In this document: positions 23,166 through 29,206 of the stretch, in pieces
How the letters are laid out: each line of letters opens with the position of its first letter
Position numbering within the stretch: the stretch's first letter is position 1
Assembly: GCA_003161635.1 (NCBI GenBank)
Contig: PMOA01000047.1
Coordinates: 331 to 41,266, forward strand
DNA length: 40,936 bases
Source: Limisphaerales bacterium
GTDB taxonomy: Bacteria > Verrucomicrobiota > Verrucomicrobiia > Limisphaerales > UBA11358
Direction: 5' to 3'
Made by a program: the position numbers and the translations under genes
The notes under the pieces: model-generated
What the model was told of the DNA's origin: nothing
The model's input: the letters and a program-made list of their open reading frames with translations, nothing else
Databases searched by the model: none

Positions 23166-23220
23166 ATTGCCCGCGCCATTCTTCTTTTGCGCTTCCCGCG
23201 CGACGCGCTATTCTTCGTTC

Positions 23221-24078
23221 ATGCTTTGGGCATTCACCAAGTATCACGCGCTCGGCAATGACTACATTGTCATTGACCCGAAGAACCTGCCGTCGCCGCT
23301 GACGACTGCGCAGGTCAAAACGATTTGCCATCGCAATTTTGGCATTGGTTCGGACGGCATTTTACTCGGTCCCCTGCCCTCCAAAAAAGCGAAGTTCGCA
23401 CTCCGCATTTTCAATCCCGACGGCAGCGAGGCCGAGAAAAGCGGCAACGGTCTGCGGATTTATTCGCGTTACTTGTGGGACCGAAAACTGGTCGGCAAGG
23501 AGGAATTTACCATCGAAACGCCCGGCGGCCTCGTGCAAGCCGAGGTGATGGACCGCGGCAAAACCGTGCGCGTCGAAATGGGCAAGGTCAGTTTCTGGAG
23601 CAACGACATCCCCGTGGCCGGCCCGCGCCGCGAAGTCATCAACGAACCGATCCACCTGCGCGGACAGCAATTCACCTTTTGCGCGGCCACCGTGGGCAAT
23701 CCGCATTGCGTGCTGCCGCTGCCGAAAATCAGCGCCGATCTGGCGAAGCAAATCGGCCCGCTGCTGGAAACGCATCTGCGTTTCCCGAACCGCACCAACG
23801 TGCAATTCATGAAGGTGCTCGACCGGAAAAACATCCAGATTGAAATCTGGGAACGCGGCGCGGGCTACACGCTGGCCAGCGGCAGCAGCAGCAGCGCGGC
23901 GGCGGCGGTGGCGCACCGGCTCGGCCTGTGCGACCGCGAGATTTCCGTCCACATGCCCGGCGGCGTCATTGCCATTGAGATCGGCGACGGCTTTGCGATT
24001 CGCATGACCGGCGCGGTGACGAAGGTGTCCGATGGAGTCATTGCCCGGGAAATGTTCAGCGCCTCCGTCGTTGCCTGA
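23221..24078 (+). CDS. DapF-family epimerase homologue with both catalytic Cys replaced by Ser
   Basis: 285 aa from ATG 23221, in line with DapF (about 275). The two-lobed DapF fold is clear: FTKYHALGNDYIVID, HRNFGIGSDGILLG, FNPDGSEAEKSGNGLRIYSR, TVGNPHCVLPL, RTNVQFMKV, IEIWERGAGYTLASGSSSSA, VHMPGGVIAIEI. In canonical DapF the acid/base residues are cysteines in CGNG and ACGS/TG; here both are serine (S74, codon AGC at 23440-23442, and S220, AGC at 23878-23880). True DAP epimerase activity by the two-thiol mechanism is therefore doubtful; it may be another isomerase, a serine-based variant or a non-catalytic form. The gene is plus-strand, 55 bp after the aldo-keto reductase. Confidence 0.9.
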   Translation: MLWAFTKYHALGNDYIVIDPKNLPSPLTTAQVKTICHRNFGIGSDGILLGPLPSKKAKFALRIFNPDGSEAEKSGNGLRIYSRYLWDRKLVGKEEFTIETPGGLVQAEVMDRGKTVRVEMGKVSFWSNDIPVAGPRREVINEPIHLRGQQFTFCAATVGNPHCVLPLPKISADLAKQIGPLLETHLRFPNRTNVQFMKVLDRKNIQIEIWERGAGYTLASGSSSSAAAAVAHRLGLCDREISVHMPGGVIAIEIGDGFAIRMTGAVTKVSDGVIAREMFSASVVA

Positions 24079-25086: not shown

Positions 25087-26304
25087 CTAAGAAGTTGGGA
25101 GTCGGAAGCCGGATGACTCCCGGTCATTTGCCGGCTGAAATTTGTCGCGCAGGACGTGGATGAGGGCCTTGACGGTGAGTTCGATGAAGAGAAATGGTTT
25201 GGCAATGAAGTCGTTGCCACCAGCCATCATGGATTTGGTGCGGTTGTTAAAGTCGTCGAGGCGGGTGACAAAGACAACGGGGGTTTTCTTGTGCATCGGC
25301 AGACTGCGCAGCTTGTTGCAGAGTTCGTAGCCGGTCATGCCCGGCATGTCGACGTCGAGAAGCACGAGGTCGAATTGATTTTCGGAAAGCAGTTTGAAGG
25401 CGGCGTTCGGGTCTTCGACGCTGACGGACTGGAGCTGCGCTTTTTCGAGCGCGTAAATGATGGCGCGGCGGGAAATGACCTCGTCGTCCACGACCAGAAT
25501 GCTGGCGGGGGGGATTTCCTGTTCTTCGGGCCGTGTACCGTGTTCAAACAGGAAGCCGAGAAAATCCACCGCGGCGGCGACGGTGTGCAGGGTTGAGGAG
25601 TTGATGTTTTTCGGTTTTTCGTGAAGTTCCTTGAGCAAGGCCTCGAGCGCGGCGGCCAGGTGTGCGATTTGGACGAGGCCGGCGATGCCGGCGTTGCCGT
25701 TGACCGCGTGGACGCGGCGGTAGAGTTCGTGGATGTGTTTGAGCCGCGCCACTTCGGTGTCGGACTTGATGAGGCTTTGCAAACCGGCGCGCATGACGGT
25801 GAGCGTGGCGGGCAGGCTGGCAATGAATGTTTCCCGGAATTCGACCTGAAATTCGGCATCAGTCTCGCTGGTAAACTTGGCGGGTTTGGTTGCCAACGCG
25901 CCTTCAGTCTTCGGACGGGCAGGCGAAACCGCGACGACGCCGCCGATGGTGCGGCGCATCAGCTCGAACAGTTCCTGGGGCGGACAGTTGATTTTGGAGA
26001 CACATTTCGTCGCGCCGGCCTTCCACGCATCCTGAATCAGGTTGGTCAAATAGGTGTTGGAAAAAACAATGATCGGCAGTTTGGAAAAGTCCGCTTCGCT
26101 GCGAATTTCCTTGATGACTTCGACGCCTGACATTTTGGGCAGCACGAGGTCAAGCACGATGGCATCAGGCTGGAATGTGCGCATCACCTTCAGGCCCGTC
26201 TCGCCGTCAAGCGCGACCTCGGCCTGATAACCTTCCACGGCGAGTTTGTTTCGATAAATATTCGCAACAATCTGGTCATCTTCGATGATGAGGATTTTTT
26301 TCAT
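25087..26304 (-). CDS. REC-Hpt-REC phosphorelay protein
   Basis: 405 aa. REC1 (1-120): E8/D9/D10, D52 in IVLDLVLPKMSG, K104. Middle helical domain (about 145-255) is Hpt-like: H199 in YRRVHAVNGNAGIAGL is the candidate phosphohistidine, though the usual HxxKG is HAVNG. REC2 (about 265-390): D273/D274, D317 in LVLLDVDMPGMTG, K369 in AKP. No DNA-binding or enzymatic output. ATG overlaps the stop of the free Hpt gene by 4 bp, so it is in one operon with the hybrid kinase 26756-29206. Probably a relay or sink in the same pathway. Confidence 0.88.
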   Translation of the reverse strand: MKKILIIEDDQIVANIYRNKLAVEGYQAEVALDGETGLKVMRTFQPDAIVLDLVLPKMSGVEVIKEIRSEADFSKLPIIVFSNTYLTNLIQDAWKAGATKCVSKINCPPQELFELMRRTIGGVVAVSPARPKTEGALATKPAKFTSETDAEFQVEFRETFIASLPATLTVMRAGLQSLIKSDTEVARLKHIHELYRRVHAVNGNAGIAGLVQIAHLAAALEALLKELHEKPKNINSSTLHTVAAAVDFLGFLFEHGTRPEEQEIPPASILVVDDEVISRRAIIYALEKAQLQSVSVEDPNAAFKLLSENQFDLVLLDVDMPGMTGYELCNKLRSLPMHKKTPVVFVTRLDDFNNRTKSMMAGGNDFIAKPFLFIELTVKALIHVLRDKFQPANDRESSGFRLPTS

Positions 26305-26759
26305 GAATGAGCGGCGTCCGGCGGCGGCGCGGCGGGATTCAACTGCGCCGCCAGAAAATTTTGAATGAGTTTGAATTCGCGCGCGGCATCTTCGTAAACC
26401 TGTGCGGCGGTGGTCAGCGCGCCGGAAGCGCCTTGCTTTTCCAATTCACGGAGCAGCGGCACGAACCGCGTCATGCCCAGCGTGGCGCTCGCGCCCGCGC
26501 AACTATGCGCCACGCGGCGGACGTCGTCGGCTTTGTTCGCGCGCACGGCGGCTTCCAGTTGCGCCAATTGCCGGGTGGTCTGCTTGAAAAACAAGTCAAC
26601 CAATTCGCGTATGCTGTCCGCGTTGCCCTCGGTTAAATCGTTCAAGCGGTCCATCTCCACCGGCAGTTCTTCAACGGCGGGCGCGGGCGCGTCGGCTTTG
26701 GGTGAGGGCGCAGTTGGTGCCGCCGGAGTCATTTCGTCTTTAATGATGGGGGGGTTCAT
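26301..26759 (-). CDS. Free-standing Hpt phosphotransfer protein (duplicate of the kinase Hpt)
   Basis: 152 aa: a Pro/Ala linker (1-33) and an Hpt domain with phosphohistidine H85 in [17 protein letters not shown]. The sequence is a near copy of residues 675-816 of the adjacent hybrid kinase. At DNA level, 26448-26557 and 26903-27012 are identical over 110 bp, and both coding ends are offset by the same 455 bp, so a tandem duplication created this gene; the linker is duplicated too. The HxxKG of many Hpts is HSCAG here in both copies. It overlaps both neighbours by 4 bp (translational coupling). Confidence 0.92.
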
Positions 26760-29206
26760 AAATGAACAGTGGCCGGCGGCGGCGCGGCGGAATTTAACTG
26801 CGTCGCCAGAAAATTTTGAATGAGTTTGAATTCGCGCGCGGTATCTTCGTAAACCTGCGTGGCGTTGATCAGCGTGCCGGAGGCGCCTTGTCTTTCCAAT
26901 TTACGGAGCAGCGGCACGAACCGCGTCATGCCCAGCGTGGCGCTCGCGCCCGCGCAACTATGCGCCACGCGGCGGACGTCGTCGGCTTTGTTCGCGCGCA
27001 CGGCGGCTTCCAACTGCTCCAATTGCTGGGTGGTCTGCTTGAAAAACAAGTCAACCAATTCGCGCAGACTGTCCGCGTTGCCGTCGGTCAAATCGTTCAA
27101 GATGTCCATCTCCACCGGCGGTTCTTCAACAGCGGGCGCGGGCGCGTCGGCTTTGGGCGCCGGCGCGGCCGGTGCCGCCGGAGCCGATTGCGAACCCCAG
27201 CGTTCGATGACGGCGCGAACGTCCTTTGGGCGGATCGGTTTGGCGAGATAATCATCCATGCCGGCGGCGAGGCATTTTTCACGGTCGCCTTGCATCGCCT
27301 GCGCAGTCATGGCGACAATGACGATGCTGGAATGGTAGTTGGTCGCGCCGGCCTTCTGTCGTTCACGAATGGCGCGCGTGGCCTCCAAACCGTCCATTTC
27401 CGGCATCATTACGTCCATAAAAATTAAGTTATATGGCTCTCGATCCAGCGCGTCGAGCGCTTCGCGTCCGTTCGCGGCGAGACCAGGCTGATAACCGAGT
27501 AGCTGCAAAATGTGCGCGGCAACCTTTTGGTTTATGGCGTTGTCGTCGCACAAAAGGATGCTCAAGGGCAATCGCTCGGTGAGGGGCTGCCCTGGTTTCG
27601 ATGTCGGTTCCTGGCGCGCGGCGGCTTTCGGACTGAGCACGGCGCGAACGAGCACTTCGCAAAACTGCGCTGGTTTGACGGGTTTGTTGACCGTGTGGGC
27701 GAACACGATGTGCGTGCTGCCGGGCGCATCCGAGTGCAGGCCCAGCGGCATGAGCAGCACCAGCGGCATCATCGCCGCGCCGGGCAATTTGTGAATTTCC
27801 ATGGCCAGCGCGAGGCCGTCCATGCCGGGCATTTGTAAATCCAGAACGCCCAGATCGTATTGTTCACCCTTTTTAAGCCATTCGAGGGCCTGCTGCGGAC
27901 TTTCGGCGCTGTACGGTACCATTCCCCATTTGGCCACCTGCTCGGCAACCACACGGCGGACAGTGGCGTTGTCGTCCACAATCAAAAGCCGCAAATCAGC
28001 GAGTTTGGGTTGAGGTCCCGCCAGGGCAAATGGCGCCGACTGCGTTTCGGCCTGAAAATTGATGGTGAAATGGAACGTCGAGCCCGCGCCGGGCGAACTC
28101 TCGGCCCACATTTTGCCGCCCATCAATTCGACGAGTTGTTTGCTGATGGCCAGACCCAGGCCCGTGCCGCCATAGTGCCGCGCGGTCGAGGCATCCTCCT
28201 GCGAGAATGGTTTGAACAACCGCTCCAGCCGTTCAGGTTGAATGCCAATGCCTGTGTCGCGCACGGAAAAATTCAGGTGCAGCAGCGAATTGTTCTGCGC
28301 CTCATCCGGCTTCATCGAGAGCAATTTGACCTGAACGAGCACGTCGCCTTTTTCAGTGAACTTGATGGCGTTGCTCAAGAGATTGGCGAGCACCTGCCGC
28401 AACCGCAGTGAATCGCCTTCGACGGTCACCGGAATCTCATCGTCCATCTGATATGCAAGATCGAGATTTTTTCCAAAGGCGCGCGCGGCCTGTAGGTCGA
28501 GCGCATCCTCCACGCAGGTGCGCAAGTTGAATGGCCGCGAGTCCAGTTCCAGTTTCCCCGCTTTGATTTTGGAAAAGTCAAGAATGTCGTTGACGATGGC
28601 CAGCACCGATTCACTGCTGGTATGAATCGTTTCGAGGTAGCTGCGCTGCTCGGCGGTCAGCGGCGCCTCGAGGAGCAGGCTGACCATGGCGATGACGCCG
28701 TTCATCGGCGTGCGAATCTCGTGGCTCATGGCCGCAAGAAAATCGGATTTGGCGCGCACGGCCGCCTCGGCGGCGAGACGGGCCTCGGTCAAATTGTCGT
28801 TGTGCCGGCCCAAGTCATCGTACCGGCGCTTCGTTTCCAGATGGGCGCGCAAACGCGCGCGAAATACCAGGGCTTCAAACGGCTTGCCCATGCAATCGCA
28901 CACACCAAGGTCGTACGCGCGCAATTTGTCCACCGTGTTATCCTCATCGGTAAGCGCGGTGACGAGCGTGAAGGTTGCCGGCGGACTTTCCTGGAGCTGG
29001 CGCAGGAATTCAAAGCCTTCCTCATTTGACGACACCAAATCAACCAGCACCAGATCGACCGGACTGGCGCGAAGAAATTGAAGCGCTTCAACGGCACGGC
29101 GTTCCAAGGCGAAGGCGATGTTGTCCGCATGCAACACACTGGACAACGTCGCCAATAGTTTTGGGTCGTTGCTGACCAACAGGATCTGGAATGCCGGCTG
29201 ACTCAT
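26756..29206 (-). CDS. Soluble hybrid histidine kinase REC-HisKA-HATPase-REC-REC-Hpt
   Basis: 816 aa, no membrane segment. REC1 (1-125) keeps D56 but its acidic pair is reduced (SND at 12-14). A coiled coil leads to HisKA with H162 in [13 protein letters not shown], then the ATPase domain ([27 protein letters not shown]). REC2 (about 403-525): D411/D412, D456, K508. REC3 (about 548-670): D598 in [13 protein letters not shown]656. A Pro/Ala linker joins the C-terminal Hpt with H749. It resembles BarA/ArcB-type relay kinases but takes its input through REC1 rather than a sensor, so another kinase must act upstream. First gene of the operon with the Hpt and REC-Hpt-REC genes. Confidence 0.94.

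Follow-up and report, generated by a model that had tools for sequence, protein, structure and literature searches.

Two cysteines define diaminopimelate (DAP) epimerase, DapF, an enzyme of lysine and cell-wall synthesis whose paired-thiol mechanism is both a textbook case and a premise of drug design. In a 40,936-nucleotide stretch of DNA from a Limisphaerales bacterium, here called the window, we identified a dapF-type gene that lacks both (Table 1). A sequence-only reading had claimed serine at each catalytic position, and translation and alignment bear this out: Ser74 and Ser220 are both encoded by AGC. The gene poses two questions: whether a protein without the thiols can be the DAP epimerase of this bacterium and, if so, what moves the proton.

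Gene and family assignment

The frame opens with ATG, closes with TGA, and has no internal stop. A longer frame from a TTG at 23167, or a wrong start or frame, was rejected because relatives start at the same ATG. The protein scores 238 bits against the NCBIfam equivalog profile TIGR00652 (cut-off 114.65). In a phmmer search of solved structures, DAP epimerases rank top (best, A. baumannii 5ha4, E 7e-58), and all PDB sequence matches are DapF or O-ureidoserine racemase. The AlphaFold2 model (pLDDT 94.4) predicts the two-domain DapF fold. Its nearest solved fold by Foldseek is 5ha4 (TM 0.91), the best PDB matches are all DapF, and crystals of DapF engineered to C73S and C217S (2q9h, 2q9j) are among the matches. 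From the proline racemase superfamily, hydroxyproline enzymes turn up in the fold comparison alone, as remote matches (13-16% identity). By profile, fold, pocket, and pathway place the protein is DapF; by the two defining cysteines it is not. We class it within the DapF family as a Ser/Ser variant, not as a canonical DapF; most likely it works as a DAP epimerase.

No conserved gene partner of Ser/Ser dapF was obvious in the contexts read, where neighbors vary, and in none of them does the gene lie inside a lysine gene cluster. In plasmid and phage collections there was no match at 60% identity or above. Elsewhere in the window, a hybrid histidine kinase ends in an Hpt domain, and the separate gene directly downstream encodes a duplicate of that domain (85% identical over 123 aa).

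Table 1. Coordinates of features in the window.
Feature	Positions	Strand	Description
dapF-type gene	23221..24078	+	285 aa, Ser/Ser form of diaminopimelate epimerase
Codon 73, Lys	23437..23439	+	Lys in 111/112 Ser/Ser, Met in 48/49 Cys/Cys; candidate helper beside Ser74
Codon 74, AGC (Ser)	23440..23442	+	Aligns with catalytic Cys73 of H. influenzae DapF; motif EAEK-S-GNGLR
Codons 211-212, Glu-Arg	23851..23856	+	DAP-binding pair, kept in all Ser/Ser sequences; roles from PMC5296763
Codon 216, Tyr	23866..23868	+	Tyr in 111/112 Ser/Ser, mostly Glu in Cys/Cys; candidate helper near Ser220
Codon 220, AGC (Ser)	23878..23880	+	Aligns with catalytic Cys217 of H. influenzae DapF; motif GYTLA-S-GSSS
Separate Hpt gene	26301-26759	-	152 aa
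Hybrid histidine kinase	26756-29206	-	816 aa, C-terminal Hpt domain

Serine at both catalytic positions

Neither the window protein nor any of 159 non-redundant relatives (44-92% identity, both sites readable) has the two catalytic cysteines of the CGNG and ACGT/S motifs; all 159 are Ser/Ser. Another 66, more distant sequences readable at both sites are Cys/Cys, and mixed Cys/Ser intermediates number zero among the 225, a pattern far outside chance expectation. These counts cover every sequence fetched that was non-redundant and readable at both sites. All six serine codons (AGC, AGT, TCC, TCG, TCA, TCT) are in use at each position across the relatives, so selection maintains the serine, and misreading of TGC does not account for it. 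Sequencing error and decay are ruled out by this codon usage together with the conservation. The sequence-only reading had likewise argued against decay, and it had excluded selenocysteine, correctly, as the codons are serine codons.

The remaining DapF motifs are present, as had also been claimed. The earlier account of the second motif was right about Ser220 but needs correction in detail: the canonical counterpart is ACGTG, and the Ser/Ser clade has ASGSS or ASGTS. A neighboring Gly in this motif has likewise given way to Ser (S223). A published DapF active-site signature (PMC8225329) fits only if serine is permitted at its Cys position. Other cysteines were rejected as stand-ins: C36, though invariant, is at a position where Cys also predominates in Cys/Cys proteins, and C154 and C163 vary. 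Profile-based annotation of DapF (TIGR00652) lets through proteins without the catalytic residues.

The rest of the active site

Alanine mutants of eight C. glutamicum DapF residues, N15, N74, N85, N159, N194, E212, R213, and T223, abolish activity (PMC5296763). Mapped by motif spacing, their counterparts in the window protein are N13, N65, N76, N160, N193, E211, R212, and S222. Across 112 Ser/Ser sequences, seven of the eight positions never vary; at position 222, 106 sequences have Ser and 6 have Thr. The window protein keeps the substrate-binding residues of DapF. Specifically, the residues for the distal (recognition-site) amino-carboxylate of DAP (N65, N160, N193, R212) are invariant in the Ser/Ser form. 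At the position of N160, the GNPH asparagine, 22 of 49 Cys/Cys sequences carry Val (GVPH) even though they retain both cysteines, so the DAP pocket is held more strictly in the Ser/Ser clade than in its neighbors. The GVPH Cys/Cys DapFs were seen in other Limisphaerales families (L041-L056).

This pocket bears on the idea that the Ser/Ser protein binds a DAP-like amino acid and performs a one-sided reaction, either elimination/dehydration or slow racemization of another substrate. A precedent exists in the proline racemase superfamily, where trans-3-hydroxyproline dehydratase B9K4G4, with natural Ser90/Thr256, is a dehydratase and not an epimerase (PMC4113996), and substrate switches are known among DapF-like proteins (HisR, DcsC, PddB). 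The invariance of N65, N160, N193, and R212 is unlike a substrate-switched protein, the Ser/Ser gene is the sole copy, and LysA and DapL are retained. We regard a one-sided reaction as improbable.

Eight further positions changed when the cysteines did and are fixed in no group but the Ser/Ser clade: Y8, P66, K73, I80, Q195, E208, Y216, and S223. All 49 Cys/Cys sequences have Arg at the E208 position and Gly at the S223 position.

Phylogeny and distribution

We built a maximum-likelihood tree from 61 Ser/Ser proteins and 49 Cys/Cys proteins after removing the two catalytic columns; all Ser/Ser proteins lie on one side of a single branch (100% SH-aLRT). Under midpoint rooting they fall among the Cys/Cys proteins, on a long stem of 0.93 changes per site. 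Within the clade, Ser/Ser rows from cyanobacteria, deltaproteobacteria, and planctomycetes are interleaved with verrucomicrobial ones. With this rooting, we read the Ser/Ser form as having arisen once, from a Cys/Cys ancestor, and then spread horizontally. The clade includes Verrucomicrobiota, Desulfobacterota and other deltaproteobacteria, Planctomycetota, and Cyanobacteria. In a scan of GTDB contigs, the best 80 relatives of the window protein are all Ser/Ser where readable and come from Limisphaerales, Opitutaceae and other Verrucomicrobiota, Deltaproteobacteria/Desulfobacterota, Planctomycetota, and three cyanobacteria. The sequence-only reading had staked its case on a Ser/Ser clade among relatives; such a clade exists and reaches well beyond Verrucomicrobiota.

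One Ser/Ser DapF (44% identical) is encoded on a viral-classed IMG/VR contig, IMGVR_UViG_3300035326_000440 (L140 / L311, 2923-3765), and is the only one of the 112 Ser/Ser sequences with Gln for Lys73. The gene adjoins a sporulation-sigma-like frame and a recombinase-like frame. This context suggests that Clostridia-like hosts are within reach of the Ser/Ser form as well.

A genome search for a second dapF with both cysteines, which the earlier reading had proposed, found none in the window's own genome (assembly 94.6% complete). That reading had said that full DAP epimerase activity with no other dapF present would count against it, and the second half of this holds. Among 59 Limisphaerales genomes, this one included, 39 have only the Ser/Ser form, 17 only Cys/Cys, and 3 no DapF (two of these are <91% complete); none has both. 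The 39 Ser/Ser proteins are 58-100% identical to the window protein, with Ser wherever both sites are readable, and the proteins of the other 17 are about 30-38% identical (in one genome, as two gene fragments), with Cys/Cys wherever readable. Within Limisphaerales, the Ser/Ser form replaces the Cys/Cys enzyme genome by genome.

More broadly, about 56 of 289 Verrucomicrobiota genomes (completeness at least 90%) have a Ser/Ser DapF, and ~48 of the 56 have no other DapF match, with classes assigned by score and by residues read in 49 fetched loci of the sample. Nine Ser/Ser-only genomes are single contigs (G106, G171, G176, G179, G187, G210, G228, G360, G363). Both forms were confirmed in G333 and G364, of 10.6 and 14.1 Mb with contamination of 5% and 9%. 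In the phylum of G079, 5 of 247 genomes are Ser/Ser, 4 of them without a second copy. The cyanobacterial phylum has 3 in 98, two also with canonical copies and one (G707) with the Ser/Ser form alone. Thirty GTDB genomes were picked from Ser/Ser matches: 24 have only that copy, although two of these also show a sub-threshold fragment. In the remaining six, the second copies that were read are Cys/Cys. Both forms occur together in cyanobacteria G059-G061 and G646 and in Desulfobacterota G071 and G419, G072, and G076. Coexistence leaves room for a second function too in those cyanobacteria and Desulfobacterota. Westiellopsis prolifica (G060; L082, L197, L198) has two DapL genes and three for DapF, of which two are Cys/Cys and the third is Ser/Ser. 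One of the Cys/Cys genes belongs to a dapA-dapB-dapL-dapF row, some of whose members were named by eye. Fortiea likewise carries both forms.

Cultured Verrucomicrobiota are among the carriers. G363, which we infer to be Lacunisphaera limnophila IG16b, and G187, which we take to be Opitutus terrae PB90-1, both encode Ser/Ser proteins as their sole DapF; G363 has DapL and LysA and no Ddh (DAP dehydrogenase), and G187 has Ddh. In many bacteria, including cultured soil and pond Verrucomicrobiota, the Ser/Ser version is the only DAP epimerase-family protein. DAP has been found by GC/MS in L. limnophila IG16b and O. terrae PB90-1, at a content in Opitutaceae of ~1/10 that of E. coli and with isomers not resolved by that method (PMC5303756). 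The same paper lists the IG16b DapF, WP_069963382.1, within a complete DapL pathway and does not remark on the missing cysteines (PMC5303756).

Lysine and DAP pathway context

In the window's own genome, DapL scores 563 bits and LysA 466 bits, and no Ddh was found over the cut-off (genome ~5% incomplete). By this gene content the genome needs a step from LL-DAP to meso-DAP. LysA exceeds the cut-off in 28 of 31 genomes, a set that mixes Ser/Ser genomes with Cys/Cys controls, and in 11 of 16 mostly closed Ser/Ser genomes; the rest have divergent LysA-like proteins below the curated cut-off. Plant-type DapL is over the cut-off in 29 of 41 genomes, and G078 and G081 have the other DapL type. Three Ser/Ser-only genomes (G216, G261, G171) are without plant-type DapL over the cut-off, which shows that the Ser/Ser form does not depend on DapL being there. 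Where DapL and LysA are present and Ddh is absent, as in most of these genomes and in the window's own, LL-DAP is made, meso-DAP is used, and the Ser/Ser protein is the only recognized enzyme between them.

A bypass via Ddh was rejected, as no Ddh over the cut-off was detected in 45 of 47 genomes searched (0 of 31 and 2 of 16 positive). The two positives are Ser/Ser-only genomes of Opitutaceae type (G187:C1:5370599-5371498 and G106:C1:94606-95508; 309-312 bits). These two, along with the few Ser/Ser genomes whose only LysA homologues are divergent and below the curated cut-off, are what would favor a Ser/Ser protein that is a relic, with meso-DAP supplied by Ddh or not needed. This is very improbable given that the other 45 genomes, the window's own included, have no Ddh over the cut-off, that most genomes have LysA, and that the Ser/Ser gene is strongly conserved across phyla. 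For the window's own genome it is already refuted, unless a Ddh lies in the missing ~5%.

In Desulfobacterota, a lysine cluster that includes dapF has counterparts without it in genomes whose one copy is Ser/Ser. G071, with both forms, has lysA-dapF(Cys/Cys)-dapL-folK-transaldolase-pgsA. The Ser/Ser-only genomes G078 (lysA-dapB-dapL-folK-transaldolase-pgsA) and G081 (lysA-dapL-folK-transaldolase-pgsA) have no dapF in the cluster, and in G079 lysA-folK-transaldolase-pgsA is left. The Ser/Ser gene sits elsewhere, outside the lysA cluster. For G078, G081, and G071, lysA, dapB, dapL, and dapF were confirmed by NCBIfam, and folK, transaldolase, and pgsA were named by eye.

Alternatively, meso-DAP could be made by a non-homologous enzyme, such as a PLP-dependent racemase like the proposed DapF2 of Staphylococcus, leaving the Ser/Ser protein as a DapF descendant with another role. 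DapF2 has been proposed as a non-orthologous replacement in gut Firmicutes without dapF (PMC9026213), Ser/Ser and Cys/Cys forms coexist in some cyanobacteria and Desulfobacterota, and engineered Cys-to-Ser mutants are nearly dead. However, 18 of 20 Ser/Ser genomes have one alanine-racemase-type gene, which is needed for D-Ala (one has two, and in one none was detected), no more than Cys/Cys genomes have. By this indirect test of 20 genomes, a DapF2-type replacement was rejected. Loss of Cys/Cys dapF accompanies the Ser/Ser form in Verrucomicrobiota, Desulfobacterota, and one cyanobacterial genome, so a hidden epimerase would require repeated coupled losses, and the DAP pocket is fully conserved in the Ser/Ser form. 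The window protein itself has the DapF fold, not the alanine-racemase fold and PLP lysine of DapF2. A hidden non-homologous epimerase is the main rival, possible but unlikely.

Function and proposed mechanism

Overall, we put the probability that the Ser/Ser protein makes meso-DAP from LL-DAP in vivo at roughly two in three. The sequence-only reading had suggested a changed chemistry, a different substrate, or a partner role. The last two now look less likely than isofunctional replacement: the protein is the sole DapF in its own genome and in most others with the Ser/Ser form, it keeps the DAP contacts, it has replaced the Cys/Cys form one genome after another, and DapL and LysA are present where Ddh is mostly absent. 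A DAP epimerase without thiols is probably the better description.

We propose that a separate, ancient Ser/Ser lineage of DapF took over the step from LL-DAP to meso-DAP in this host and many other bacteria. The protein would fold and bind DAP like ordinary DapF. Ser74 and Ser220, at the N-termini of two opposed helices, would form the acid/base pair instead of thiols. The helix dipoles would assist, and K73 and Y216 may do so too. Residues that co-vary with the two serines (Lys73, Tyr216, Ser223, Glu208, Tyr8, Pro66, and Gln195) may adjust the acidity of both. That these two serines themselves move the proton we consider an even bet. Slightly more tentative is the wider proposal of a widespread natural cofactor-free epimerase that uses two Ser hydroxyls for two thiols and, across several phyla, has displaced the Cys/Cys enzyme from an essential step.

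Single Cys-to-Ser mutants of PddB retain <0.1% activity, with a comparable remaining activity cited for M. tuberculosis DapF (PMC8225329), and Cys-to-Ser mutants of HisR are greatly impaired (PMC11602996). For the Ser/Ser protein to be a good enzyme, the co-varying residues must compensate for such a loss. The 4-hydroxyproline 2-epimerase B9JQV3, with a natural Ser93/Cys pair, is still a two-base epimerase (PMC4113996), which indicates that Ser is able to serve one side in this fold.

Either the two-thiol mechanism is not universal, or an unrecognized enzyme carries out DAP epimerization; either answer would be new. The clade offers a direct test of whether an alkoxide/hydroxyl pair can perform 1,1-proton transfer at an alpha-carbon when the site is re-tuned. 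Ser/Ser enzymes should also resist thiol-directed DapF inhibitors and oxidative inactivation.

Comparison with known systems

The Ser/Ser form shares with canonical DapF (EC 5.1.1.7; TIGR00652, PF01678; 5ha4, H. influenzae 1gqz, C. glutamicum 5m47) its fold, length, DAP-binding residues, DapL/LysA context, and single copy. It differs in having both cysteines replaced by serine, in its own invariants (K73, Y216, S223, E208, Y8, P66), and in forming a separate monophyletic branch with 33-41% identity to Cys/Cys relatives. No description of a natural Ser/Ser DapF was found in the open-access papers searched, subscription papers being outside that scope.

The histidine racemase HisR/CntK, the O-ureidoserine racemase DcsC, and the 2,4-diaminobutyrate racemase PddB are likewise cofactor-free enzymes of the DapF fold and are often annotated as DapF. 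All three changed substrate and kept Cys/Cys. The Ser/Ser form is the reverse, with an unaltered substrate site and replaced cysteines.

B9JQV3 (Ser/Cys) and B9K4G4 (Ser/Thr) have a related two-domain fold and a natural serine at the first acid/base position (PMC4113996). They differ in their proline-type substrates, and serine either serves one side only (the epimerase) or belongs to a dehydratase (Ser/Thr). No natural Ser/Ser epimerase was found described there (PMC4113996). PLP-dependent DapF2 (PMC9026213) resembles the Ser/Ser form as a proposed stand-in for Cys/Cys DapF at the same step; its fold and cofactor are unrelated, and it is not expanded in Ser/Ser genomes. The C73S (2q9h) and C217S (2q9j) structures each carry serine at one of the same positions with the fold intact. 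Those are single mutants made in the laboratory, whereas the Ser/Ser form is a natural double replacement with co-varying neighbors.
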